Source: Spirochaetes bacterium GWE1_32_154 (GTDB lineage Bacteria > Spirochaetota > GWE2-31-10). Taken from it: a stretch of DNA of 64,000 nucleotides. Under the pieces are notes generated by a model that saw only the letters and a list, made by a program, of their open reading frames with translations, did not search any database and was not told the DNA's origin. The position numbers were made by a program, and so were the translations under genes. This document shows, in pieces, positions 20,478 to 27,651 of this stretch; positions within the stretch are counted from its first letter, which is position 1; every line of letters begins with the position of its first letter. The stretch lies in the NCBI GenBank assembly GCA_001829315.1, contig MIAY01000021.1, positions 62,001-126,000 on the forward strand. Reading direction: 5' to 3'.

Positions 20478-20564
20478 AGAACACACTATATACTATTACC
20501 CTGAAAAAAAACCTGATATTTACAAAAAAATAATTTTTTTTTGTTGCGGTGAAACAATTTTGTT

Positions 20565-20581
20565 AGTGATATTTCATCACT
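20565..20581. promoter_or_regulatory. Dyad upstream of the sigma-54 promoter, candidate activator site
   Basis: AGTGAT and ATCACT form a perfect inverted repeat around ATTTC. The site is about 70 bases upstream of the -24 element, a normal distance for an enhancer-binding protein. A role in the divergent gene is equally possible. Confidence 0.4.
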
Positions 20582-20633
20582 GGTACGTTTTTGTATAGTT
20601 TGTGAATGAATAGCGTCTTTAAGTAATATACAG

Positions 20634-20650
20634 TTGGCACATATTTTGCT
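20634..20650 (+). promoter_or_regulatory. Sigma-54 promoter of the ammonium-signalling operon
   Basis: TTGGCACATATTTTGCT matches the -24/-12 consensus TGGCAC-N5-TTGCW exactly. The start of transcription should fall near 20660, only about a dozen bases before the cheY-like ATG at 20672, with the AGGAG ribosome binding site at 20661-20665 at the very 5' end of the message. Confidence 0.75.
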
Positions 20651-20671
20651 AAACAAAATGAGGAGTACGCT

Positions 20672-21037
20672 ATGAAACTATTAATTGTGGATGATTCAAA
20701 TATAATGCGCAGAGCAATAGAAAAATATGTAAAAGACTTTAAACTCGACCTCATCGGTACTGCCGGCGATGGGGAACAGGCTTTAGCATTATTTAAAACA
20801 CATTCACCTGACGTCGTCACTCTTGATATAACAATGCCTAAACTGGATGGAATCTCATGTTTAAAAGAAATGATGAAAATAAATCCGCGTTGCAGAGTAC
20901 TTATAATAAGTGCATTAAAAGACCCTGCCACAAGTTTGTCTGCTCTAAAATATGGTGCAAAAGGGTTTTTACCAAAACCATTTACTGAATTGCAGTTAAA
21001 GGAAGAAATTCTTGAATTATTGGGGGATACTAAATGA
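20672..21037 (+). CDS. CheY-like single-domain response regulator
   Basis: This 121-residue receiver domain has no output domain. All key residues are present: the acidic pair D7-D8, the phosphorylation site D52, S80 in the switch position and K102 in the KPF motif. It is the first gene of the sigma-54 operon and overlaps the next (cheX-like) gene by four bases (ATGA), so the two are translationally coupled. The likely phosphate donor is the HPt domain of the kinase two genes downstream. Whether it acts on the flagellar motor or on another partner cannot be told. Confidence 0.93.
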   Translation: MKLLIVDDSNIMRRAIEKYVKDFKLDLIGTAGDGEQALALFKTHSPDVVTLDITMPKLDGISCLKEMMKINPRCRVLIISALKDPATSLSALKYGAKGFLPKPFTELQLKEEILELLGDTK

Positions 21038-21480
21038 AAGAAGAAGAAATAAAAGGGTTTATACATACCGTAACAAGTTATTTTAATCAGATAACGGAAA
21101 TTCCTGCAATAATGGGGCTTCCATATATTAAAGATAATAAAACTGTAACATACGATTTCACCGGAGTAATCGGAATATCGGGTAATAGAAAAGGGGCTGT
21201 TTATTTTACCGCATCGAAACAATTGCTTCTTGATTTTGGACATTTCATTCTTGGTGATGATCAATTAGATGATGATGCGTTGTATGATTTAATTGGCGAG
21301 ATGGTCAATACAATTACCGGTAATATGCGAGAACTTTTTGGCAGTACATTTACAATTTCTGTCCCGATTATTATGAAGGGCACAATTGAAGATATTGTTA
21401 TTCAGTTGAAACCTCCCGTTTTTATTATCCCGATAAAATGGAAAGAACATACATGTCATCTTGGAATCGGGCTGGAGTAG
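21034..21480 (+). CDS. cheX: CheX-like phosphatase of CheY-P
   Basis: The 148-residue protein shows the CheX/CheC pattern: a beta-rich N-terminal half with GVIGISGNRKGAVYFTAS, then helix LIGEMVNTITGNMRELFG that carries the E-x-x-N catalytic motif (E-M-V-N). CheX proteins dephosphorylate CheY and are common in spirochaetes. The four-base overlap with the regulator gene upstream and the three-base gap to the kinase downstream support a private phospho-circuit. As there is only one ExxN motif, it is closer to CheX than to the two-site CheC. Confidence 0.85.
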   Translation: MKEEEIKGFIHTVTSYFNQITEIPAIMGLPYIKDNKTVTYDFTGVIGISGNRKGAVYFTASKQLLLDFGHFILGDDQLDDDALYDLIGEMVNTITGNMRELFGSTFTISVPIIMKGTIEDIVIQLKPPVFIIPIKWKEHTCHLGIGLE

Positions 21481-21483
21481 ATT

Positions 21484-24231
21484 ATGAATAATACAATGTT
21501 GGATATATTATGGATTGTAGTCGCATCAGGTCTTGTGTTTAGTATGCAGGCTGGTTTTGCAATGGTTGAATCAGGTTTAACTAGATCAAAAAACAGTATT
21601 AATGTTGCAATTAAAAACCTTACCGATCTTGGTGTTTCCATAATGATTTACTGGCTTTTCGGTTTTGCAATCATGTTTGGTATATCAAAATGGGGATTAT
21701 TCGGAACAACCGGGTTTTTCTTTGAACCGGTTGCGACGTGGGGAGCTGTTTTCTTTTTATTTCAATCTATGTTTTGCAGTACATCAGCAACAATCGTATC
21801 AGGAGCTGTTGCCGAGAGAATGAAATATTCAAGTTATATAATTTCAACAATTCTTTTATCACTGATTATTTATCCGGTATTTGGTCATTGGGTGTGGGGC
21901 GGCAGTTTTATCGAAGGTTCAAACGGCTGGCTGCGTTCTTTAGGTTTTATTGATTTTGCCGGGTCAACAGTAGTTCATAGTCTTGGGGGATGGGTTTCTC
22001 TTGCAATACTCATTATTATCGGGCCGAGAATCGGACGGTATTCGCCGGATGGTAAAGTAAATACAATAAATGGAAGTAATATCCCTAATGTCGTTCTCGG
22101 GGTTATTATATTATGGTTTGGCTGGTTTGGATTTAACGGGGGCAGTACTTTAGCAATGAATGAATCAGTTCCCGGCATAATTTTGCGAACAACATTATCA
22201 GCCGCAGCCGGTATGGTCGGTTCGCTTTTTATCGGATGGCCAATTCGCAAAAAACCTGATGCAACATTAGTAATGAATGGTTCATTAGCAGGTTTGGTTG
22301 CAATAACCGCATCGGTTCATGCGGTGAGTTCTTTTGAATCCGTAATAATCGGTTTAATAGGCGGTATTGTAATGATGGGTACCGAAGAATTATTAAACAG
22401 ATTACGAATAGATGACGCTGTCGGGGCTATTCCTGTTCATTTAGCAGCCGGTATATGGGGGACTCTTGCCGTTGCGATATTTGGAGACCTGACAATTCTT
22501 GGAACAGGGTTATCCCGGATTAATCAGACGTTTGTTCAAATAATCGGTATTGCTTCATGCGGTATTTGGACATTCGGACTTTCATACACTATTTTGTTTC
22601 TTGTTAATAAAGTTGTAAAAATGAGAGTTTCCGTTGCCGATGAACATACGGGGTTAAATATTGCCGAACACGGGGTAACTACAGAGATTCTTGATTTATA
22701 CACGACAATGGATGCTCAGGCTAAGACGGGTGATTTGAAACTTCGAGCTCCTGTTGAACCGTTTACAGAAGCCGGTCAAATTGCGCTCATGTATAATAAA
22801 GTTATCGATTCACTTGAAAAAAATACTATTGAAAAAGGGGCATATTTAGATATTCTACAGAATGTCACTGACGGGATATTTCTTGTAAATCGCGATCTGA
22901 CAATTGGAGATTATTATTCTACAGCACTTGAAACTATTTTTGGACAAAATAATTTAGGTGGTCTTAATATCATTTCTGTAATAAGTCAGCAGATACCATC
23001 ACGAATTGAAGATGTATTACACGAGTTTTTTTTTGTTAGTTTTGATAATTCGATTAAATGGAGAAATTGCAGTAAATTAAATCCACTCAATGAAGTCGAG
23101 TTTATTATACAGGATGGAAAAGGTTCTTTTACAAAAAAACACCTGTGTTTTAACTTTAAACGCCTGGAAAAAGATGGTGTCATTGAACAATTACTGGTTT
23201 TAGTACGGGATGAAACTATACAAAAAGAACTTTCTTTAGAAATGGATAAGAATCAGAAAGAAAACCGTTCTGAAATGGAGCTTTTGTATAAAATACTTCA
23301 TGTTGAACCGGAAATTATGGCTGAGTTTCTCAATAATCTTGAATACGAGTTAAATGAAATAAACCGGGAAATGCAAAACGGGGAGAGTAATTTACGTGAT
23401 ACAATTGAGGTGATATTCAGACATTCTCATGCGATAAAAGGTGAGGCGGGGCTTTTACAAATCGATTTTATAGCAGAAAAAGCAGAGGAACTGGAAAATA
23501 CGATACTTTCACTTCGTAATCGCACAACCATTGAAGCAGGTGATTTTTTACCGCTTACTCTTTTATTCAGTGAGTTGCAGAAAACAGCATTGAATGTTAA
23601 AGATCTTTTACATAAATGGTTGAAAATTGATAATCCGGCAAAACAATCATTTGAAACTAAAGATGAATTATTTATTAACAGCATAAAAAATATGGTGAAA
23701 CGATTATCATTAGAATACGGAAAAGAAATTAAATTGCATTTTGAAGGTGATATTTTTAAACATATTAAAACGGATAATCATAAAAAAGTAAAAGATATAA
23801 TCATTCAGTTATTACGAAATGCGGTTTTTCATGGAATAGAAAATCCATCGGTAAGAGAACGAATGGGGAAAAACAGGGAAGGGGTTATTCATATTAAATC
23901 ACAAAAAAATGAAAATAATGTTACCATACAGGTAAAAGATAATGGTCATGGAATTGATAAAAGAAAACTGTATACAATCGGAGTTGAGAAAGGTTTAATT
24001 TCATCACCAGGAAAGAAAATAACAGATAATGAAATTATTCAGTTGCTATTTGCATCGGGTATTTCAACAGCCGATAAACCGGATCATATTGCAGGTAAAG
24101 GTGTAGGAATGGGAATGGTTAAAAATCTGATTCGTGAACTTAACGGTTCAATTAATATCAAATCAAAAAAAAATGAATACTTTGATTTTCTTGTCACTTT
24201 TCCTGTTAATGGGGAGATAGTCAATGGATAA
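21484..24231 (+). CDS. Ammonium transporter fused to a PAS-HPt-HATPase (CheA-like) kinase
   Basis: Residues 1 to about 385 form a complete Amt channel with about 11 membrane segments and both pore histidines in the expected contexts (H165 in VVHSLGG, H319 in PVHLAAG). The linker, with EHTGLNIAEHG and PFTEAGQIALMYN, is the one seen in other Amt-signalling fusions. A PAS-like region follows (about 455-590), then an HPt domain with HSHAIKG (phosphorylatable H649) and a CheA-type ATPase with N box LLRNAVFHGIE, G1 DNGHGID and G2 GKGVGMGMV. There is no CheW-like P5 domain and no obvious P3 dimer helix pair. It should convert ammonium binding or passage into phosphotransfer to the CheY-like protein. 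The last 8 bases overlap the cyclase gene. Confidence 0.9.
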   Translation: MNNTMLDILWIVVASGLVFSMQAGFAMVESGLTRSKNSINVAIKNLTDLGVSIMIYWLFGFAIMFGISKWGLFGTTGFFFEPVATWGAVFFLFQSMFCSTSATIVSGAVAERMKYSSYIISTILLSLIIYPVFGHWVWGGSFIEGSNGWLRSLGFIDFAGSTVVHSLGGWVSLAILIIIGPRIGRYSPDGKVNTINGSNIPNVVLGVIILWFGWFGFNGGSTLAMNESVPGIILRTTLSAAAGMVGSLFIGWPIRKKPDATLVMNGSLAGLVAITASVHAVSSFESVIIGLIGGIVMMGTEELLNRLRIDDAVGAIPVHLAAGIWGTLAVAIFGDLTILGTGLSRINQTFVQIIGIASCGIWTFGLSYTILFLVNKVVKMRVSVADEHTGLNIAEHGVTTEILDLYTTMDAQAKTGDLKLRAPVEPFTEAGQIALMYNKVIDSLEKNTIEKGAYLDILQNVTDGIFLVNRDLTIGDYYSTALETIFGQNNLGGLNIISVISQQIPSRIEDVLHEFFFVSFDNSIKWRNCSKLNPLNEVEFIIQDGKGSFTKKHLCFNFKRLEKDGVIEQLLVLVRDETIQKELSLEMDKNQKENRSEMELLYKILHVEPEIMAEFLNNLEYELNEINREMQNGESNLRDTIEVIFRHSHAIKGEAGLLQIDFIAEKAEELENTILSLRNRTTIEAGDFLPLTLLFSELQKTALNVKDLLHKWLKIDNPAKQSFETKDELFINSIKNMVKRLSLEYGKEIKLHFEGDIFKHIKTDNHKKVKDIIIQLLRNAVFHGIENPSVRERMGKNREGVIHIKSQKNENNVTIQVKDNGHGIDKRKLYTIGVEKGLISSPGKKITDNEIIQLLFASGISTADKPDHIAGKGVGMGMVKNLIRELNGSINIKSKKNEYFDFLVTFPVNGEIVNG

Positions 24232-25324
24232 GATTATACCGGATATAAAAAATATCGAATGTGACAAAAATTGCCAATTTTATAATCTGTTTAAAAAATC
24301 ACAGGAAGCGATGTTTTTAACATCAAGAGACGGCTATTTTCTGGATGTCAATGATTCCATGGCTTTGTTGCTTGGTTATAAAAAAAGCGAACTTATCGGT
24401 ATGAATGTTGAGAAAATATATGATGTTAATAAAGACAGAGATTTATACATTAAATATATTGAAGAAAAAGGAGTGGCTCAAAATTATGAGATAACACTGA
24501 AAACATCTGACGGGAAGGAATTATTCTGTCTTATTGACGCAATTATCTGGAAGGAAAAAGGAAAAATTGCCGGGTATTACGGGATAATACGAACGAAGAA
24601 TCAGATTGTGAAGTCTTTCCAGGAATATTTTAATAAACTCAATGCTGATAGAAGTTCCACCGGGTATGAGAAAAAGAGCCAAATATCCGATACAATGTTA
24701 TTAATGCGATACGGTTCGAGTGAGCTTCTTGATTATGTCCAGAAAACAGGTAAAAACCCCATGCAATCCGGGAAACGAAAGGTAACCATATTGTTTTTTG
24801 ATATAATCGGTTCAACAACGATTGCAGAAAAATTATCACCTGAGGTTTTTACTTCATTTTTAAGTGATATTTTTGTCGATATTATGGATTTGATATATGG
24901 AAATCACGGATCTGTTAATAAATTACTTGGCGACGGTTTGATGGCAACTTTTGGTGTTCCTCTTGAAACAGATAATGATGAATTTAATGCAGTAAATACA
25001 GCAAAACAGATTGAAGAATATCTTGATACATACAATGATGTAAAACCTGATTTTATTGAAAATGAACTGAAAGCGGGAATTGGTATCGCTACAGGATATG
25101 TTTTTGCAGGGGTAATCGGTTCTGTTCGATGGGAGGAATATACGGTTCTCGGTGATACAGTAAATGTTGCCGCGCGGTTTGAAAAACTAACCAGGAAAAT
25201 TGACGGCAACATTCTTATTGATGAAGCAACATATAATGCGGTCAAAAACGACTTCCCGGTAAAAGCAATTTACAAAGGTGCTGTACGGGGCAGGAAAGAA
25301 AAAATGCGCCTATTTTCTGTTTAG
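24224..25324 (+). CDS. PAS-domain class III adenylate cyclase
   Basis: This soluble 366-residue enzyme has an N-terminal PAS domain (about 20-125, with DGYFLDVNDSMALLLGY) and a class III cyclase domain (about 185-366). Metal-binding Asp193 (FFDIIGST) and Asp237 (LLGDGLM) are present, as is the Lys233 expected for ATP specificity. LGDTVNVAARFE supplies the purine-contact Asp and the catalytic Asn/Arg. It overlaps the kinase gene by 8 bases, so it is tightly tied to the ammonium-sensing module, making cAMP a probable output or parallel branch. The next gene is convergent. Confidence 0.88.
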   Translation: MDKIIPDIKNIECDKNCQFYNLFKKSQEAMFLTSRDGYFLDVNDSMALLLGYKKSELIGMNVEKIYDVNKDRDLYIKYIEEKGVAQNYEITLKTSDGKELFCLIDAIIWKEKGKIAGYYGIIRTKNQIVKSFQEYFNKLNADRSSTGYEKKSQISDTMLLMRYGSSELLDYVQKTGKNPMQSGKRKVTILFFDIIGSTTIAEKLSPEVFTSFLSDIFVDIMDLIYGNHGSVNKLLGDGLMATFGVPLETDNDEFNAVNTAKQIEEYLDTYNDVKPDFIENELKAGIGIATGYVFAGVIGSVRWEEYTVLGDTVNVAARFEKLTRKIDGNILIDEATYNAVKNDFPVKAIYKGAVRGRKEKMRLFSV

Positions 25325-25337
25325 AGAGCCTCTATTC

Positions 25338-27050
25338 TTATAACATATCGGAACATTTTTCAATGAATAATGAAGCTACTGCATCATTTGGAAACACTGA
25401 ATGAATTTTTGAAAAAAGAGTTTTTGCCTCATCATACTTCTGAATATTAAAAAGGTATAGTGCATTGTGTAAATCAGATTTCGTTGTGTCTTTCAATTCA
25501 ATCAGTTCATTTGTATCTGCATCATAAATCTCAAAAACAACAATTGACTCGGTTTTTCCTTTTACAAGTGTATTACCTAAAAATCTATATTTATATTTAT
25601 CGGGAAAATTTAAACGATTAAACAATTCTTTGGTAATTAATGTCGAAACACCAAAATCTTTTGTCAGTGTATCAAGTCGTGCGGCTAAATTAACAGAATC
25701 TGAGATTACCGTGCCTTGCATTCTTTTTTCATCACCTATAATTCCAAGCATAAGTGTCCCCGTGTGGATACCGATTCCGGCATTAATTTCAAACAAACCC
25801 TGCGCTTTCCTTTCCCGGTTGTATTGAGCCAGTTCCTTTCTCATTTCAATGGAGGCGATGATTGCATCATCAGGATTTTTAGGAAATAAAGCCATTAAAC
25901 CATCACCGAGATATTTGTCAATAAAACCGCCATTTTTTCTGATGATCGGTCCGATTCTTTGTAAGTAAGAATTTAAAAAGTCAAATGTTTGTTTCGGTGT
26001 CATCGATTCTGACAGTGTGGAAAAAGAACGGATATCAGAGAACATAATTGCCATGTCTTTTTGTATCTGATCTCCCAGTTTTACCTGCATAATATCATTT
26101 TTTGATAAAAAAGTAAGAAACTCTAAAGGAACAAATCGTTCGTAAGAGGTATTGAGATCCTGCATATATGTGTTATAATCCTGAATTGTTACAGCCATTA
26201 AATTAAAATTTTCAATGAGGTTTGCTGTTTCTTTTATATTTGATTGAAAATCAGCACGTGCTTCAAAGTCCCGCTCAGAGAATCTTTTTACTGTATCAGA
26301 AAGGAGAATTATTGGTTTACTAATTGAATTAGCAAGTACAGCACTTATTACGATTACAAAAAAAATCGCTAAAATCATAATGACAAAGCATATAACAAGT
26401 ATCTTTCGTAAAAAAATAGCGATGTTTTTATTGGAAATATCAGCACCAAGAATTCCAAGAAATTCACCGGTATTTTTATCAAATATCGGGGCAAAACCCA
26501 TCATTGAGTAAACTTTATAATCTTTATCATATATAAATTGGGTTTCAATGCAGTTTTCTTTTTCTTTGAGAGCTTTTTGTGTTACCGGCTGAGATGAAAT
26601 ATCATAATCAAGCCCGAAATGAGAAATATCTTCATCAGGAGCTGACTCTTTTTTTAACGAAAGCACATCTGCATCAACGACAAATCGTGCCATGGTTTCG
26701 TCTTTCCCGGGAATTAAGGTGTAGACAAAAATAAAAAGGTCTTTTTTGGTATTTCTAATCTCGTTTAAATAGTTATATATTTTTTTATAATCATCAGATT
26801 GTTCGATACTATCAATAGAATCAGTTGTCAATTTATTTTCATTTATTTTCTCTGTTAACCGTTTAAATGCATCGGTATCTATACCTGATGCACCGAGGAA
26901 AACGGTGCTTTGAAAATTTTGTATTATTTCAGAGTACAATTTCTGTTTAACAAAATAATAAAAAGCTGCAGTTACCACCATAATAATAATTAAACTGGAA
27001 AAAAAGAAATACAAACCAATATTCATTTTATAGCTGATTTTTTTTGCCAT
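25338..27050 (-). CDS. Membrane-bound adenylate cyclase with extracytoplasmic sensor and HAMP
   Basis: The start is placed at 27050 (MAKKISYKM), preceded by AAGGTG and 10 bases after the upstream gene's stop; a longer frame would overlap that gene. A first membrane helix (about 10-38) is followed by a periplasmic Cache-like sensor, a second helix near 230-255, HAMP (about 255-305), and a class III cyclase domain. The cyclase has MFSDIRSFST and KYLGDGLM, with the ATP-specifying Lys, and VISDSVNLAARL. A short TPR-like tail follows. It is independent of the sigma-54 operon and converges on it. Confidence 0.87.
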   Translation of the reverse strand: MAKKISYKMNIGLYFFFSSLIIIMVVTAAFYYFVKQKLYSEIIQNFQSTVFLGASGIDTDAFKRLTEKINENKLTTDSIDSIEQSDDYKKIYNYLNEIRNTKKDLFIFVYTLIPGKDETMARFVVDADVLSLKKESAPDEDISHFGLDYDISSQPVTQKALKEKENCIETQFIYDKDYKVYSMMGFAPIFDKNTGEFLGILGADISNKNIAIFLRKILVICFVIMILAIFFVIVISAVLANSISKPIILLSDTVKRFSERDFEARADFQSNIKETANLIENFNLMAVTIQDYNTYMQDLNTSYERFVPLEFLTFLSKNDIMQVKLGDQIQKDMAIMFSDIRSFSTLSESMTPKQTFDFLNSYLQRIGPIIRKNGGFIDKYLGDGLMALFPKNPDDAIIASIEMRKELAQYNRERKAQGLFEINAGIGIHTGTLMLGIIGDEKRMQGTVISDSVNLAARLDTLTKDFGVSTLITKELFNRLNFPDKYKYRFLGNTLVKGKTESIVVFEIYDADTNELIELKDTTKSDLHNALYLFNIQKYDEAKTLFSKIHSVFPNDAVASLFIEKCSDML

Positions 27051-27060
27051 AAAGCACCTT

Positions 27061-27651
27061 TTATTTTTTATATAGTAATGAAACATTGGAAATCATATTT
27101 TCGTCCTTTTTTTTCTCGCCGGAATAATGAGTCTCAATGTTGATGTTTTTATTGTTTTCACTTTTATTAATAATTGCACTATATAAAACCCTGTATTTCC
27201 ATCGTATTGAGCCTTCAATCAGGATTTTGTATTCCCCGTCGGCAACGGGAAGTGAATTATAATCAGTAAAATCCCATGACAGATTGATTGTTTTTGATTG
27301 AGGTGTGGCACTGCTTATAGAATCAATATCCACCTTGGACAAAGTTGATACTTTTGATGATTTAGCCCATAATGGAATAGAGTCCGGTCTGTTTTTCCAT
27401 CCCTTTTTGGCAGTAAATTGTGTGACATAGATAGTTTTTACATAGTTTCCCGATAAATCTTCTATCCATACCGCAAATTGATTACTGGCAATACCGCTTA
27501 GTCTTATATAATCAAATGATATCTGTATTGCATTTTCGCTTGTTTTAGTAGCTGATATTACATCATTACTATATAAATGAAATGTACTGAGAGCAAACAG
27601 GATGAATAATGGTATAATAAACTTATTGTTGTATGTGTATTGAATTTTCAT
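27061..27651 (-). CDS. Exported DUF2271-like protein
   Basis: The 196-residue protein has an N-terminal signal or anchor segment (FIIPLFILFALSTFHLYS). The conserved DUF2271 features are visible: NQFAVWIEDLSGNYVKTIYV, KKGWKNRPDSIPLWAKSS, and a late strand VADGEYKILIEGS. DUF2271 proteins are periplasmic and often travel with FMN-binding or PepSY redox proteins; here a flavodoxin gene lies 19 bases upstream and the double FMN-binding protein is 6 kb away. The exact role is not known. Confidence 0.72.
   Translation of the reverse strand: MKIQYTYNNKFIIPLFILFALSTFHLYSNDVISATKTSENAIQISFDYIRLSGIASNQFAVWIEDLSGNYVKTIYVTQFTAKKGWKNRPDSIPLWAKSSKVSTLSKVDIDSISSATPQSKTINLSWDFTDYNSLPVADGEYKILIEGSIRWKYRVLYSAIINKSENNKNINIETHYSGEKKKDENMISNVSLLYKK

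Follow-up and report, generated by a model that had tools for sequence, protein, structure and literature searches.

A sigma-54 promoter and putative paired enhancer sites upstream of a predicted ammonium-receptor phosphorelay operon in a bacterium of the Spirochaetota

The sigma-54 promoter glnAp2 of Escherichia coli is activated by NtrC, and its paired enhancers lie about three helical turns apart. With regard to spirochaetes, their chemotaxis employs a CheA-type ATPase, a CheX phosphatase and a single-domain CheY. As for nitrogen control in this phylum, little was found in the literature searched beyond Leptospira, in which RpoN and EbpA, an enhancer-binding protein (EBP) of the GAF type, control amtB (PMC12655853). 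A further described system is Ks-Amt5 of Kuenenia stuttgartiensis, an ammonium sensor histidine kinase with an N-terminal Amt (PMC5764959; 6eu6).

The locus described here lies in a window of 64 kb, i.e., the whole stretch of DNA that was analysed. Its features, in order of position, are the following:

20553-20564, no strand assigned: putative enhancer site 1, AACAATTTTGTT, agreeing with TACA-N4-TGTA at 6 of 8 positions
20565-20581, no strand assigned: dyad AGTGAT ATTTC ATCACT, which fills the gap between enhancer sites 1 and 2 and is probably coincidental
20584-20595, no strand assigned: putative enhancer site 2, TACGTTTTTGTA, agreeing at 7 of 8 positions, 31 bp from site 1 and 39 bp before the -24 element
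20635-20650, + strand: sigma-54 promoter TGGCACATATTTTGCT, TGGCAC-N5-TTGCT, an exact consensus match that is conserved in orthologous operons; the -24 GG is at 20636-20637 and the -12 GC at 20648-20649
20660-20665, + strand: ribosome binding site GAGGAG, assigned by sequence
20672-21037, + strand: CheY-like single-domain response regulator, 121 aa (Response_reg, E 4.8e-27; phospho-acceptor D52 invariant in four orthologues)
21034-21480, + strand: CheX phosphatase, 148 aa (CheX, E 2.3e-16), overlapping cheY by 4 nt
21484-24231, + strand: Amt-CheA-type receptor kinase, 915 aa (Pfam Amt, Hpt and HATPase in a single frame)
24224-25324, + strand: PAS domain plus class III adenylate/guanylate cyclase, 366 aa (Guanylate_cyc, E 6.4e-24; PAS_9, 1.4e-11)

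The four genes overlap or are separated by gaps of a few bases, and the PAS-cyclase gene is likely the last of the operon. Convergent with it, on the - strand at 25338-27086 of the window, is the gene for another class III cyclase, whose sensor domains are HAMP and Cache-like.

The promoter agrees with TGGCAC-N5-TTGCW and has the GG and GC of sigma-54-dependent promoters at -24 and -12. The full consensus claimed in the preliminary description is borne out, and a pattern search returned the site as the sole exact match in the 64-kb window. When up to two mismatches were allowed, the window gave 19 matches against 21 expected; hence only the exact match is informative. The motif is placed 22 bp before the ATG at 20672, and several further sigma-54 sites of the same genome also lie 19-26 nt, from motif end, before an ATG. 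By standard sigma-54 geometry, the predicted +1 falls at about 20660-20661, 12 bp past the -12 GC, leaving a leader of ~11 nt; the arithmetic behind the earlier remark that the message would start nearly at the ribosome binding site therefore holds.

The genome (4.03 Mb) does contain rpoN, in one copy, without which the proposal would fall, together with 15 strong EBPs. Promoter assignments across the genome are pattern searches: TGGCAC-N5-TTGCW gave 15 exact matches versus 3 in the reverse-read control, and TGGYAY-N5-TTGCW gave 45 versus 6. The TGGCAC matches ending in TTGCT are mostly intergenic or at the start of a gene, often with an ATG 19-60 bp downstream, and those ending in TTGCA, as far as examined, fall mostly within coding sequences. 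The TTGCT group includes the sites of nifH and the type III glutamine synthetase; a matching or near-matching site also stands upstream of each of the two canonical amtB genes, and the nifA-like gene has the site TGGCATAAATTTTGCT. By eye, a nif cluster (L175, G000:C10:72000-91500) comprises nifH, two PII-like genes, nifDK/EN-like genes and a homocitrate-synthase-like gene; two EBP genes are nearby, and sigma-54 sites are found at nifH and the nifA-like gene. Elsewhere, two sigma-54 promoters that are almost identical (TGGCACAACTTTTGCT; L104, G000:C5:37859, and L109, C17:92785) precede related genes of unassigned function, and the enhancer pair is absent from both.

Four other genomes of this phylum, spread over three families, encode full-length orthologues of the Amt-kinase with 42-45% identity, and all four operons keep the order cheY-cheX-amt::kinase. 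Upstream of each there is a -24/-12 site, directly before cheY in three of them: TGGCACACTTCTTGCG in G049, and TGGCCCCGTTTTTGCA in G013 and G052. The site of G018, TGGCACACTCTTTGCC, lies further upstream, at 458 bp, a distance that leaves space for an intervening gene, and in this genome a PAS-cyclase homologue follows the Amt-kinase. Given that identity is below 50% and that the upstream DNA is otherwise unlike, the conservation of the -24/-12 site is strong support for the promoter. With the full consensus, rpoN and the EBPs, the sites at nitrogen genes and the presence in all four orthologous operons, the sigma-54 promoter of the operon is almost certainly real. Sigma-54 control and its link to nitrogen, both proposed in the preliminary description, are well supported by rpoN and the EBPs, by conservation in the orthologues, and by the occurrence of promoter and enhancer together at amtB, glutamine synthetase and the nifA-like gene. 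Taken alone, this promoter reading is ordinary; the part worth follow-up is the enhancer motif together with the receptor operon.

What, then, is the control sequence of the operon? The comparison of upstream regions from this operon, two amtB genes, glnN and the G013 orthologue led to a 12-bp palindrome, TACA-N4-TGTA, that occurs in pairs 28-31 bp apart. Over the 36 sites of 18 pairs, the bases at the outer positions hardly vary, and A or T predominates at the four in the middle. The pair of this operon, upstream of the sigma-54 site and with a spacing of 31 bp, fits the set, being weaker (6/8 and 7/8) than most members, and its shuffle p of 0.026 is post hoc because the motif was noticed partly in the same sequence. 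The pair is present at this operon, the genome's own amtB, glnN, the nifA-like gene and the amtB of relatives, with a shuffle p of 0.001-0.003 for most, 0.001 being the floor of the test. Several of these regions played no part in finding the motif: the nifA-like gene (p 0.003), amtB of G043, G004, G006 and G013 (p 0.001 each), and an operon of G380 whose first gene resembles an amino-acid-transporter binding protein (p 0.001). Within the genome itself, the pair is absent from 12 of 13 non-nitrogen sigma-54 promoters, the remaining one (L112) having a p of 0.018, and it is not supported at nifH (p 0.14); nor was it found at the amtB copy examined in G001, G029, G033 and G046.

A search of 393 genomes for the combined pattern (pair, then 60-90 bp, then the sigma-54 core) gave 14 matches versus none in the reverse-read control, nearly all of them before amtB, glutamine synthetase or the Amt-kinase operon. 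Eight of the 14 were previously unseen: five precede glutamine synthetase genes (types I and III), one amtB, one a modA-like gene for a molybdate-type binding protein, and one a small gene of unassigned function. A companion search with a spacer of 31-61 bp returned three matches in this genome, one elsewhere and none in the controls. Without the sigma-54 site, the pair pattern had 8 matches in this genome versus 8 in the control, so that specificity resides only in the combination with that site. On these comparisons of sequence, the control sequence of the operon is likely the TACA-N4-TGTA pair rather than the dyad.

Variants of the motif were also seen. Upstream of nifH in G006 (L246) there is a variant pair, TACCTAAAAGTA and TACTTTTAGGTA, 30 bp apart, which counted from the sigma-54 site stand at -134 and -104, and the nifH of the present genome has TACCTTTCAGTA at -137; such a variant is possibly a form of the enhancer that is particular to nif and serves one of two EBP paralogues. 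In another genome (L292, G374:C37:12305-12427), a pair and a sigma-54 site stand before the gene for a protein of 104 aa that has a cysteine-rich end and matches no Pfam family.

Another question is which protein would bind these sites. In a tree of 42 EBPs, one clade (support 100/99) includes two proteins of this genome, C4:5214-6749 and the nif-cluster one at C10:77014, along with proteins encoded beside amtB in G004, G013, G052 and G043. Each of the four members checked combines a GAF, an AAA and a Fis-type HTH domain and lacks a receiver domain, i.e., they are NifA-like. A profile of the clade HTH sets strong hits (E below about 1e-20) apart from the rest, and the two proteins of this genome score 3.6e-27 and 1.0e-27, respectively. 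All of the pair-bearing genomes that were checked have the clade, and the HTH profile did not find it in G018 and G049, in which the operon keeps the promoter without the pair. In G033, the pair lies between a clade member and the glutamine synthetase gene that directly follows it. The link is one-way, since G001, G029, G033 and G046 have the clade and lack the pair at the amtB copy examined. From this imperfect correlation we infer that the GAF-AAA-HTH clade is the probable binder of the TACA-N4-TGTA sites.

The same promoter and pair might instead be served by a receiver-domain EBP of the NtrC type (e.g., C19:111782 or C34:28764), which we regard as unlikely. In proteobacteria, nitrogen genes are usually activated by NtrC, several receiver-domain EBPs are indeed encoded in the genome, as the preliminary description had anticipated, and the C19 group is represented in the pair-bearing G013, G006 and G043 as well. 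However, receiver-type EBPs are likewise present in the pair-less G018 and G049 (in the latter on a loosely supported branch of the C19 group), and it is the GAF clade, not the receiver EBPs, that adjoins amtB or glnA with the pair between or alongside. The clade that tracks the motif carries an N-terminal GAF and no receiver, so the expected activator is probably not NtrC-like. Moreover, the NtrC (NRI) consensus TGCACY-N5-RGTGCA reaches 7/12 at best within 250 bp of the operon, and no NifA site (TGT-N10-ACA) occurs within 250 bp of its promoter; being absent or poor, neither consensus was retained as the control element.

With a GAF-type EBP as the probable activator, the system can be set beside those already described. 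In common with glnAp2 and NtrC of E. coli, it has the -24/-12 element, the EBP logic, the paired sites, and amtB and glutamine synthetase as targets; it differs in having TACA-N4-TGTA rather than TGCAC-type sites, a probable activator with GAF and without receiver, and an ammonium-receptor kinase among the targets. By description, it appears to resemble EbpA-RpoN of Leptospira, which sets a precedent for it, in sigma-54, the GAF-type EBP, the amtB target and nitrogen limitation; an Amt-kinase operon is not described there (PMC12655853), whereas the present system has one.

The locus had been called an ammonium operon, and this name is incomplete: an Amt is present, but as the N-terminal part of a histidine kinase, and the first gene encodes a CheY. 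The kinase consists of Amt (residues 1-399), a coupling linker (~400-445), a PAS-like part recognized by eye, Hpt (610-686, with H649) and a CheA-type ATPase (731-908). In the four aligned orthologues, the phospho-accepting H649, N779, H783, the G-boxes and the twin pore histidines H165/H319 are invariant, as are E89 and N92 of the E-x2-N motif in CheX. Like CheA, the protein has an Hpt (P1) with HxxKG and a P4 ATPase, H649/K652/G653 and the ATPase boxes being invariant, and CheA chains in the PDB match residues 731-908; a C-terminal CheW-like P5 is lacking, as the protein ends just past the ATPase and has no CheW match. When the named genome collection was searched with the whole protein, the matches were essentially confined to the Amt part and gave no help with the operon.

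Having an Amt fused to a cytoplasmic signalling output, the protein is a candidate member of the sensor Amts of the Ks-Amt5 type, Ks-Amt5 being the experimental precedent for such a fusion to a kinase. Like Ks-Amt5, it joins an N-terminal Amt to a histidine kinase and is a putative sensor rather than a plain transporter; Ks-Amt5 has a standard DHp-type kinase, whereas the protein described here has an Hpt and a CheA-type ATPase with a CheY and a CheX of its own. By sequence, the closest solved relatives of residues 1-444 are 8qj3/8qpf, followed by Ks-Amt5 (6eu6). The former are long Amt proteins (644-661 aa) whose alignment reaches residue 444, and thus includes the linker, and stops before the C-terminal part; the likeness covers Amt and linker. 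The operon resembles the chemotaxis system of spirochaetes in its CheA-type ATPase, CheX and single-domain CheY; unlike it, the kinase has no CheW domain, the operon has no MCP, and the receptor is covalently attached to the kinase.

Other Amt fusions were also observed. On the reverse strand of L169 (G057; Amt start at about rc 4786), Amt is fused directly to a class III cyclase, with TGGCACTCAAATTGCT upstream; judged from its domains, this protein is a one-protein version of ammonium-to-cyclic-nucleotide signalling. The Amt proteins at 5179-7308 of L170 (G044) and 2-2023 of L124 (G020) have the same linker and differ in what follows it at the C-terminus, which by eye is a PP2C/SpoIIE-like phosphatase and PAS repeats; the Amt-linker unit thus appears to be joined to several outputs.

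Could the Amt-kinase be mainly a transporter, with a phosphorelay that tunes it or is vestigial? The twin pore histidines are intact, as such a role would have it, and yet we consider it quite improbable. The genome already has two ordinary amtB-glnK pairs elsewhere, and for this reason we favour a receptor over an uptake system as the reading of the protein. In addition, the residues of kinase, CheY and CheX are conserved over large distances, and the linker after Amt is kept in Amt proteins fused to other outputs. The best reading of these sequences is that the operon encodes an ammonium-receptor phosphorelay, predicted to be induced under nitrogen limitation, and not a plain transporter operon.

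The preliminary description had also placed an NtrC-like activator on the dyad. The letters are there, with perfect 6-bp arms, a span of 17 bp as in an NtrC site and a position ~55-70 bp before the -24 element, but a role as activator site finds no support and is very improbable. A perfect inverted repeat with arms of at least 6 and a loop of 3-12 arises in 59% of 1000 dinucleotide shuffles of the 148-bp upstream region and in 184 of 432 window segments of 148 bp, and the dyad is not even the longest inverted repeat of that region. The recommended search for it at other sigma-54 promoters gave no support: the genome has one other exact copy, which is within a coding sequence, and hence the exact dyad is at no second sigma-54 promoter. 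It was not seen in the upstream regions, as printed, of the orthologous operons either. On shuffles, non-recurrence and non-conservation, the dyad was rejected as the enhancer.

A reading in which the sigma-54 site matches by chance and a sigma-70-type promoter serves the operon is just as hard to credit: promoter-like matches come up often in DNA as rich in A+T as this region (74%), but no sigma-70-type match was found on the coding strand upstream of the operon, the site is kept in the orthologous operons (just before cheY in three of four), and sigma-54 sites are strongly enriched before genes genome-wide.

Collectively, the promoter, the paired motif with its recurrence, the gene order, the domains and the conserved catalytic residues, all read from sequence, are best explained by a sigma-54 and GAF-EBP paired-site control of an Amt-CheA phosphorelay, an explanation that we hold to be probable as a whole. 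RpoN-RNA polymerase would sit as a closed complex at the promoter at 20635-20650, which would drive the cheY-cheX-amt::cheA-cyclase operon. Under nitrogen limitation, the presumed signal, a GAF-AAA-HTH (NifA-like) EBP would bind at 20553-20564 and 20584-20595, ~three helical turns apart, and its ATP hydrolysis would open the promoter, likewise at amtB, glutamine synthetase and the nifA-like gene. The Amt domain would bind ammonium outside the cell, and the linker would relay the signal to the Hpt and the CheA-type ATPase. Phosphate would then pass to the co-encoded CheY, from which CheX would remove it. For the PAS-cyclase, a role as second output or as target of the relay is probable. The direction of the response to ammonium is a further presumption, as is the final output, which may be motility or a cyclic nucleotide.

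What does this mean for these bacteria? From a single promoter match comes a nitrogen regulon that can be tested, its enhancer sequence defined and the candidate activators narrowed to a few. The operon also points to the coupling of an ammonium receptor to signalling of the chemotaxis type, which would extend the idea of the sensor Amt from Kuenenia to a CheY/CheX relay. More broadly, and more tentatively, probable spirochaetes may possess a nitrogen control distinct from NtrB/NtrC, working through a GAF-type, NifA-like EBP and paired TACA-N4-TGTA enhancers; its regulon would include a self-contained ammonium chemoreceptor, with Amt in place of an MCP and joined to a CheA-like kinase, which would give ammonium-directed CheY, and possibly cyclic-nucleotide, signalling when nitrogen is short.
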